NCBI GenBank assembly: GCA_038731975.1
Contig: JAVYQJ010000001.1
Span: forward strand, 1-64,000
Direction: 5' to 3'
Length of the DNA: 64,000 nt
Source of the DNA: Thermofilaceae archaeon
GTDB lineage: Archaea; Thermoproteota; Thermoprotei; Thermofilales; Thermofilaceae
The notes beneath the pieces were generated by a model. It had not been told where the DNA came from. It was given only the letters and a program-made list of their open reading frames with translations, and ran no database searches. How positions within the stretch are numbered: position 1 is the stretch's first letter; every line of letters begins with the position of its first letter. The position numbers and the translations under genes were made by a program. This document shows positions 2,504 through 62,564 of the stretch, piece by piece.

Positions 2504-2613
2504 TGGTGCCGGGGCCGGGATTTGAACCCGGGACCTTCCGGTTTCTTCCGGTTTCCCGTCTTCAGCCGGACGCTCTATAGCGCGGGGGTACCGACCCGCT
2601 GAGCTACCCCGGC
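2504..2613 (-). tRNA. tRNA-Phe (GAA) with two introns, CCA encoded
   Basis: The acceptor stem GCCGGGG/CCCCGGC, discriminator A at 2507 and encoded CCA (2504-2506) are clear. The anticodon arm TCCGG-CTGAAGA-CCGGA carries anticodon GAA and is interrupted by about 17 nt (2542-2558) at the canonical 37/38 position. The gene is still too long: the D arm holds about 15 extra nt (roughly 2580-2594). Removing both gives a 75-nt tRNA with a normal D-loop. So there is one canonical intron and one probable D-loop intron. The exact D-loop splice points are not fixed by inspection. Confidence 0.9.
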
Positions 2614-8992: not shown

Positions 8993-9036
8993 CGGAGGAA
9001 GGAAAGGATTTAATGCAAGCAAGCACCGAGTTCTCG

Positions 9037-9090
9037 GAATGAAGAATACCCCTTTACTGACCTGTGAAGAGAAGGAGGTGATCTGACCCC
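9037..9090 (+). ncRNA. Box C/D guide sRNA; D guide matches the 16S 3' end
   Basis: The order is exact: C box TGAAGA (9040-9045), 11-nt guide, D' CTGA (9057-9060), 4-nt spacer, C' TGAAGA (9065-9070), 12-nt guide GAAGGAGGTGAT (9071-9082), D CTGA (9083-9086). A TATA-like GATTTAATG is centred 27 bp before the RNA's expected 5' end. The second guide is complementary to AUCACCUCCUUC, the conserved anti-Shine-Dalgarno tail of 16S rRNA. The same bases also form the Shine-Dalgarno of the gene at 9092, and the interval reads as a 15-codon ORF (9039-9086). The C/D call rests on spacing and motif identity. Confidence 0.6.
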
Positions 9091-9091
9091 G

Positions 9092-9391
9092 ATGAAGCGT
9101 GCGGGAAAGAAACGGGGCAGGAGTGTTAGGAAGCCTTACCCGACCAACAGGGATATTATTGAGGCTCTCACTGATGTTGTGTACGCGAAGCCTTATCTAC
9201 ACCCTGATGACTTCGTCGAAGAGGTTAGGAGGGAGCTCGAGAGTAGGGGTTTCTTCACCGGGCTAGTGAGCGCGCGAAGAGTGTGGAGGTGCTACGAGAG
9301 AATGGTTAAGAGCGGTAGGATGCCGGATCTCCTTAACGTAGTTTCAGTCGGCGATGAGGCTCTCGATGGTCCTGAAGAGCTCTCTAGCTAG
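9092..9391 (+). CDS. Small basic protein of unknown function
   Basis: The 99-residue protein begins with a strongly basic tail (MKRAGKKRGRSVRK) and continues with a helical region (NRDIIEALTDVV, DDFVEEVRRELESRG, VWRCYERMVKSGRM) that looks like a small three-helix, possibly winged, nucleic-acid-binding domain. I do not recognise the family. ATG 9092 follows a near-perfect Shine-Dalgarno, GGAGGTGATC, which is rare in this mostly leaderless region and belongs to the C/D-like element upstream. Its last 48 bp overlap the convergent thioredoxin gene. Confidence 0.65.
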   Translation: MKRAGKKRGRSVRKPYPTNRDIIEALTDVVYAKPYLHPDDFVEEVRRELESRGFFTGLVSARRVWRCYERMVKSGRMPDLLNVVSVGDEALDGPEELSS

Positions 9392-17844: not shown

Positions 17845-18138
17845 ATGGGGTACGAGGTTGAAACGGGAAGATCCCCCCTTCCCTATGAGTCAAAAGTCTA
17901 CATAAACAATCAGGTTTTAATACCGGCATCGATCGTGAAGGCCCTCAACCTACGTGACGTAAAGAGGGCGCGCATAACCCTGGAACACATGGGGTCAGAG
18001 GTTATCGTTGAAGTGAAGCTGTTGAGGACTCGTCACACCGACTCGCGCCAGTTCACTATACCTAAGAGCGCTAGAGACAGGTACGGAATATCACCTGGCT
18101 CAATGGTAAAGATAAAAAGCATCGAACCCTTAGATTGA
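17845..18138 (+). CDS. AbrB/SpoVT-like swapped-hairpin protein, two tandem half-domains
   Basis: The 97-residue protein has two copies of the AbrB beta-hairpin pattern: KVYINNQVLIPASIVKALNL near residues 17-36 and RQFTIPKSARDRYGISPGSMVKI near residues 68-90. Such proteins are DNA-binding regulators, often of adjacent genes or as antitoxins; there is no toxin gene next to it here. ATG 17845 is leaderless with a strong TATA box. A C/D sRNA candidate starts 4 bp after its stop codon. Confidence 0.75.
   Translation: MGYEVETGRSPLPYESKVYINNQVLIPASIVKALNLRDVKRARITLEHMGSEVIVEVKLLRTRHTDSRQFTIPKSARDRYGISPGSMVKIKSIEPLD
18111..18119 (+). promoter_or_regulatory. TATA-like element of the 18142 sRNA
   Basis: AGATAAAAA inside the 3' end of the AbrB-like gene is centred about 27 bp before the expected 5' end of the C/D RNA that follows. 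Confidence 0.4.
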
Positions 18139-18141
18139 TGG

Positions 18142-18195
18142 GAATGAAGACGGGTCAAAGCTCTGAGAGGTGAAGAGACCGCTACACCTGACCTG
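18142..18195 (+). ncRNA. Box C/D guide sRNA candidate
   Basis: C box TGAAGA (18145-18150), 12-nt guide CGGGTCAAAGCT, D' CTGA (18163-18166), 4-nt spacer, C' TGAAGA (18171-18176), 11-nt guide GACCGCTACAC, D CTGA (18188-18191). Spacing is that of archaeal dual-guide C/D RNAs, and the same TGAAGA boxes and 4-nt spacer recur in the RNA at 9037. Predicted targets would read AGCUUUGACCCG and GUGUAGCGGUC; I could not place them by memory in rRNA. Confidence 0.6.
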
Positions 18196-58929: not shown

Positions 58930-59044
58930 TGGTGGGCCCGCCGGGATTCGAACCCGGGACCTCCCGCGCTCCTAGTCCGATTGACCCGCTCAGCTGCAAC
59001 CCGAAGCTTGTAAGGCGGGCGCCCCACCGCTGGGCCACGGGCCC
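58930..59044 (-). tRNA. tRNA-Val (UAC) with 40-nt intron, CCA encoded
   Basis: Acceptor stem GGGCCCG/CGGGCCC with discriminator A (58933) and encoded CCA (58930-58932). Anticodon arm CCCGC-CTTACAA-GCGGG reads anticodon UAC after removal of a 40-nt intron (58968-59007) at the canonical 37/38 position. Spliced length is 72 nt plus CCA. Confidence 0.92.
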
Positions 59045-62445: not shown

Positions 62446-62564
62446 GCCGGGGTCGCCTAGCCTGGTCGAGGGCGCCGGACTCATAATCCGGGCCCGGGAT
62501 AGGATATCCGGTTAGCGGAAGTCCCGCCCGGAGAACCCGGGTTCAAATCCCGGCCCCGGCACCA
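62446..62564 (+). tRNA. tRNA with CAU anticodon (elongator Met or Ile2), 40-nt intron
   Basis: Acceptor GCCGGGG/CCCCGGC, A73 (62561) and CCA (62562-62564). Anticodon arm CCGGA-CTCATAA-TCCGG reads CAU. A 40-nt insert (62492-62531) follows the 3' anticodon stem; its ends can slide by four bases because of CCGG repeats, so the splice position lies between about 40 and 44, not the canonical 37/38. GTTTAAG lies about 29 bp upstream. Elongator Met is more likely than Ile2. Confidence 0.85.

Follow-up and report, generated by a model that had tools for sequence, protein, structure and literature searches.

In this study, a 64,000-nucleotide stretch of a Thermofilaceae genome (the window; the genome is G000 below) was found to contain, at 9039-9086 (+), what is predicted to be a C/D box sRNA gene of the textbook archaeal two-guide type, whose D guide is complementary to the 3' tail of 16S rRNA. 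The anti-Shine-Dalgarno in this tail is the ribosome's mRNA-binding site and, to our knowledge, is not generally regarded as modified. The explanation that we consider probable for the element as a whole is that a C/D sRNP would bind the 16S tail and methylate C1535. By each testable defining feature the predicted RNA is a C/D box sRNA, and it would represent a new family. The earlier suggestion of a guide RNA aimed at the mRNA-binding end of the ribosome was strongly supported, since the boxes, the guide register and the K-turn stem are kept in genomes where the downstream gene is absent.

Locus architecture and class assignment

The predicted RNA extends over approximately 9035-9089, and its parts are listed in Table 1. 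The boxes follow one another in the order C-D'-C'-D, and guides of 11 and 12 nt lie directly 5' of D' and D, as is characteristic of archaeal C/D sRNAs, whose C boxes are RUGAUGA-like, whose D boxes are CUGA and whose guides measure about 10-13 nt. Every letter of the arrangement TGAAGA-11-CTGA-4-TGAAGA-12-CTGA given in the preliminary description was present, and the promoter that it had placed at a suitable distance was recovered as a TATA-like box. Moreover, 12 of 20 homologues had such a box 26-42 nt ahead of the C box, whereas 5.6% of control windows from the vicinity contained one.

Table 1. Features of the predicted sRNA locus and the adjoining gene (window coordinates)
Feature	Position	Strand	Remark
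TATA-like promoter box TTTAAT	9009-9014	+	30 nt 5' of the C box
Terminal (K-turn) stem, 5' arm	9035-9037	+	followed by one unpaired base, then the C box
C box ATGAAGA	9039-9045	+	read from the sequence; kept in homologues
D' guide ATACCCCTTTA, 11 nt	9046-9056	+	candidate targets of 7-8 bp only
D' box CTGA	9057-9060	+	sequence; homologues
D'-C' spacer CCT	between 9060 and 9064	+	
C' box GTGAAGA	9064-9070	+	sequence; homologues
D guide GAAGGAGGTGAT, 12 nt	9071-9082	+	complement of the 16S rRNA 3' end; +5 from box D is C1535
D box CTGA	9083-9086	+	sequence; homologues
Terminal stem, 3' arm (CC)	9087-9089	+	stem pairing test
Downstream gene for a basic three-helix protein of 99 aa (family of unknown function)	9092-9391	+	

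In the Rfam comparison, nearly all of the 15 best sub-threshold matches over the element were C/D families on the + strand, the best being sR60 (9035-9088, E 0.0018) with the boxes aligned. No family reached its gathering score over the element, and the guides differ from those of the Rfam families; these families are guide-specific, and a match to one of them is not a defining feature of the C/D class. The sub-threshold scores are thus read as marking a putative new C/D family, not as non-membership. A strict two-guide C/D pattern matched two sites in the window (9039 and 18144).

The other site, at 18144-18191 (+), reads ATGAAGA-12-CTGA-GAG-GTGAAGA-11-CTGA and starts 5 nt past the stop of the ORF at 17845-18138. 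Its best Rfam matches were archaeal sR families, and a search for an rRNA target of this candidate gave none that was clear. In addition, Rfam located three tRNA genes of 107-116 nt in the window, at 2507-2613 (-), 58933-59044 (-) and 62446-62561 (+), which were missed by ARAGORN under bacterial settings and which probably carry introns.

Pairing of the guides with 16S rRNA

The 16S 3' end of the window genome reads GGATCACCTCCTTCC... The D guide paired at 12 of 12 positions with the genome's own pre-16S 3' end, ATCACCTCCTTC (in summary form AUCACCUCCUUC), a count made on the pre-16S and including the last two U's, which mature 16S may not keep. The complementarity to the 16S 3' tail proposed earlier was thus complete in this genome, and the register count agreed with the proposed site, as the N+5 rule from box D led to C1535 (E. 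coli numbering), the first C of ACCUCC. The same site had the top score in three further genomes with both rRNAs, though its lead was small in G001 and G006.

Among 28 homologues, guide positions 2-11 (10 bp) were paired with the 16S tail in 27, the exception being G061, with a mismatch at position 3. Position 1, which adjoins box D, was mismatched in 26 of the 28, and position 12 in 13. The mismatch at position 1 is expected, because the pairing of a C/D guide is limited to 10 bp; according to PMC8053127 and PMC8162545, which cite Yang 2016, the C/D RNP accommodates at most 10 bp of guide pairing. Furthermore, position 1 avoided the T that would extend a Shine-Dalgarno (P = 0.017 against 25%), which counts against a Shine-Dalgarno, since the latter would have no reason for such avoidance. 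The D guide was 12 nt long in nearly all of the 28, with one register variant in the DPANN archaea described below.

For the D' guide of the window, only candidates of 7-8 bp were obtained, such as AAAGGGGT in helix 44 of 16S and ACAAGGGGTGA near E. coli position 939. The best 16S candidate shared by the relatives, ACAAGGGGUGA, was weak and failed in G006, and a common D' target was rejected. Mean identity over the 28 homologues was 0.30 for the D' guide versus 0.85 for the D guide, the latter value being inflated as the search patterns themselves contained the guide.

These data are consistent with the following mechanism. The sRNA would assemble with L7Ae, Nop5 and fibrillarin into an sRNP, which would bind the single-stranded 16S tail during ribosome assembly. 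Positions 2-11 of the D guide would form 10 bp with the (pre-)16S 3' tail UCACCUCCUU, and this pairing would place fibrillarin for 2'-O-methylation of C1535, while the D' guide would be free to drift or to retarget. By general chemistry, a 2'-O-methyl group would favour an A-form helix with the Shine-Dalgarno of an mRNA and would shield the exposed tail from hydrolysis. That the RNA is expressed, enters an RNP and directs methylation is what we infer from these features, as would be any influence on the binding of mRNA or the maturation of 16S. Fibrillarin itself is encoded in the hosts tested (E 2.2e-99 in the window genome); two incomplete DPANN MAGs gave only a weak partial match.

The sRNP might instead bind the same tail with methylation not being its main role, acting as a chaperone or shield of the anti-Shine-Dalgarno in 30S assembly or as a guide for 16S 3'-end maturation. 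The D guide pairing reaches U1540-U1541, and in many genomes also the next base, which is up to or past a likely mature 16S 3' end, and the DPANN form joins the 1402 and 1535 regions. Chaperone roles of C/D sRNAs have been proposed at other sites (PMC4644070). However, the register between guide and box D is base-exact in nearly all homologues, and positions 1 and 12 are left free, which is the geometry of methylation; a pure antisense shield would not need such geometry, and the fixed register therefore counts against it. A role of this kind appears rather unlikely, and methylation of C1535 is the preferred reading.

Conservation in the order and class

A protein search with the 99-aa gene, which was blind to the guide, recovered the element ahead of the homologous gene in G001, G002, G006 and G007 in addition to the window genome. 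These five orthologous loci share the C box, an 11-nt guide, the D' box, a spacer of 3-5 nt, the C' box, AAGG[AG]GGTG[AG]N and the D box. With a sequence-only model built from these five loci (R1) and with pattern searches, the four-box element (C, D', C' and D) was identified in 20 of the 27 genomes that represent the order of the window, weaker matches were obtained in four more, and the element was also present in some genomes of the outer families f13 and f14. The pattern searches required AAGGRGGTG, so that the conservation of the guide is partly ascertained, which does not apply to the five loci found by protein homology or to positions 1-2 in the pattern scans. The bare pattern AAGGRGGTGNNCTGA, which requires no C' box, matched mostly on these C/D elements.

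Deviations were seen in the D box, which reads GCGA, ATGA or CACGA in three f1 genomes, and the D' box was not recognisable in the f3 and f5 homologues. Thermoproteaceae-like genomes (f9) were without the element. A free-register search (TGATGAN{0,6}GGAGGTN{1,6}CTGA) over 397 genomes matched approximately 60 scattered sites, the control about 18, and no new family stood out clearly.

The R1 match L066 (G014) is a C/D-like element with similar boxes and a similar stem, but its D guide, GAAGGCGTTTGT, would be directed at a different target; it was left out of the homologue set. At L219, L220 and L221 (G067, G052 and G068; f13/g27), what reads as the D' position of another C/D RNA appears to hold the same 12-nt anti-Shine-Dalgarno guide in the same register, and a conserved second guide, TAAGGCATTTGG, comes after it.

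Most copies of the element are intergenic, with no start codon at a Shine-Dalgarno distance. In G003, which belongs to the genus of the window genome, the element is present without the 9092 gene; its neighbour is a convergent 138-aa ORF, taken from its synteny to be a thioredoxin, and the gene for the 99-aa protein is on a different contig. The boxes, the guide register and the K-turn stem are kept where the downstream gene is absent, far off or on the opposite strand. In the window genome the terminal stem comprises only two pairs (GG/CC). Over the 28 homologues, in a statistic that weights related sequences equally, 75 of 112 stem positions outside the C and D boxes were paired, versus 52.5 with shuffled partners, and none of 5000 shuffles was as high. 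The signal was obtained only with one unpaired base before the C box and vanished on one-base shifts; the outer stem is thus taken to covary only in the register demanded by a C/D K-turn.

Shine-Dalgarno, upstream ORF and the downstream gene

The 99-aa protein is conserved across the class with the motif KKPYPxNxDI; it had no Pfam match, and its predicted structure showed a confident three-helix core with no significant match in the PDB. Its linkage to the sRNA is not kept in most relatives. In the window genome, the ATG at 9092 is preceded by GGAGG at 13 nt and by GGTGA at 10 nt; this spacing is long, yet not unusual for the window. Across the five orthologous loci the start codon lay approximately 10, 11, 18, 23 and at least 26 nt past the GGTG core (G006 about 18, G007 about 23, G001 at least 26), and a conserved Shine-Dalgarno spacing was not observed among them.

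The K-turn might act in the leader of the 9092 mRNA, where bound L7Ae would mask the Shine-Dalgarno and so repress translation in cis, as in the l7ae leader of Sulfolobus. Regulation of this kind is known (PMC5539422), and the K-turn boxes here flank the Shine-Dalgarno; however, two complete box pairs with guides of 11 and 12 nt exceed a single K-turn, and the element mostly does not stand before the 9092 gene or any other gene start, which makes such a function improbable.

Slightly less probable again is an ordinary mRNA leader, in which the stretch would be a long Shine-Dalgarno of the 9092 gene, with or without a 15-codon upstream ORF, and the likeness to a C/D RNA would be coincidental. 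The position of GGAGGTGAT 10-13 nt before the ATG in G000, the similar arrangement in G002 and a comparable layout before non-ATG starts at four DPANN loci agree with such a leader. Against it, the element persists when the gene is missing or convergent or lies kilobases off, the spacing is lost in G001, G006 and G007, the ORF is not conserved, the K-turn stem covaries, and in 26 of 28 homologues the T that would lengthen the Shine-Dalgarno is avoided beside box D. The preliminary description had set the comparison of relatives beforehand as the test between a guide RNA and a leader that mimics one. The relatives kept the C, C', D' and D boxes without the downstream gene, which favours the guide RNA, and kept boxes and guide while losing the position of the Shine-Dalgarno, so that the leader was abandoned. 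A plain Shine-Dalgarno was likewise rejected as the sole explanation, as its spacing is lost in relatives and the element is kept without a gene start.

Two further proposals held in part. The leaderless ORF of 15 codons is present at 9039-9086, but its stop and length vary among relatives; with lengths of 15, 15, 9, 5 and 5 codons, shifting stops and indels of 1-2 nt in the D'-C' spacer, it was rejected as a conserved gene. The guide may double as a Shine-Dalgarno in the window genome and in G002, but the spacing is lost in G006, G007 and G001.

A second lineage in Diapherotrites and Micrarchaeota

In a named scan that covered 84,980 species, 45 stretches were obtained; apart from those in Thermofilales-like genomes, a compact set of MAGs from Diapherotrites and Micrarchaeota stood out. 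The DPANN form, gcg-ATGATGA-guide-CYGA-NNN-RTGANGA-NAAGGAGGTGAN-CTGA-gc, has canonical boxes and occurs in about eight genomes, being absent from most of that phylum. This near-perfect version is considered, from the sequences compared, to have arisen independently of the one in Thermofilales, and outside the class the anti-Shine-Dalgarno guide was found only in these DPANN archaea. Here the D' guide is also conserved; it forms 8 bp with CUGCCCGU of 16S, with N+5 on a position that we take to be C1402 in E. coli numbering. With D' at C1402 and D at C1535, both predicted targets lie near the 16S 3' end.

At L114:5636, L133:5514, L142:2882 and L150:1308 (also L166), an FAD-dependent oxidoreductase-like ORF stands behind the sRNA. 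At four DPANN loci the ORF seems to begin 7 nt past the D guide at AUA, AUC or AUU, as the frame appears to contain no ATG, GTG or TTG downstream of the last stop, which is suggestive of a D guide acting as a Shine-Dalgarno for a non-ATG start. A possible start codon at a Shine-Dalgarno distance was seen in G061 and at four DPANN loci.

A chance coming together of short motifs, in a genome rich in Shine-Dalgarnos, can be dismissed, although bacterial matches of the loose named scan show that overlaps of stop codons and Shine-Dalgarnos can imitate the right half. Conservation in an unrelated phylum and in about 20 genomes within the order refutes it; in addition, 200 Markov-1 random sequences of the window's size contained no strict match, and in 398 phylum genomes the pattern matched 34 times and its reversed form about 5 times.

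Discussion

In the window genome, as in some others, the sRNA gene directly adjoins a coding gene, for which the D guide may serve as a cis Shine-Dalgarno. It is conceivable, if doubtful, that one RNA combines both uses, as a trans-acting guide that methylates the anti-Shine-Dalgarno and as the cis Shine-Dalgarno of its neighbour, with the same fusion having arisen separately in DPANN before the apparently ATG-less gene. Such dual use, if true, would couple sRNA output, modification of the 16S tail and translation of the neighbouring gene. Moreover, as guide and Shine-Dalgarno are the same sequence, evolution can exchange one for the other.

With an anti-Shine-Dalgarno guide conserved in two archaeal groups that are unrelated and probably thermophilic, the chemical tuning or protection of this site becomes directly testable, as does any influence of it on the use of Shine-Dalgarnos at high temperature. 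A target in the anti-Shine-Dalgarno or the 16S 3' tail is not mentioned in the main texts of PMC4644070 and PMC7994747 or in the results of literature searches, and an earlier listing in supplementary target tables is possible.

The predicted RNA resembles the L7Ae-bound K-turn leaders (PMC5539422) in that K-turn boxes stand close to a Shine-Dalgarno in a short leader; unlike them, it has two complete box pairs, conserved guides and usually no mRNA start behind it. With the archaeal two-guide C/D sRNAs (Rfam sR families; PMC4644070) it shares the four boxes, guides of 11-12 nt and the short D'-C' spacer, as well as the K-turn terminal stem, the N+5 register and the overlap with neighbouring genes. 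It is unlike the members of that class described in the texts consulted in that its D guide would be aimed at the 16S 3' tail, and its guides are unrelated to any Rfam family. The DPANN form invites a comparison with the m4Cm1402 of bacteria, as its D' guide would 2'-O-methylate the same C1402. The bacterial RsmI ribose-methylates this 16S residue, whereas the DPANN modification would be guided by RNA and not made by a stand-alone enzyme, and it would be coupled to a second target in the anti-Shine-Dalgarno.
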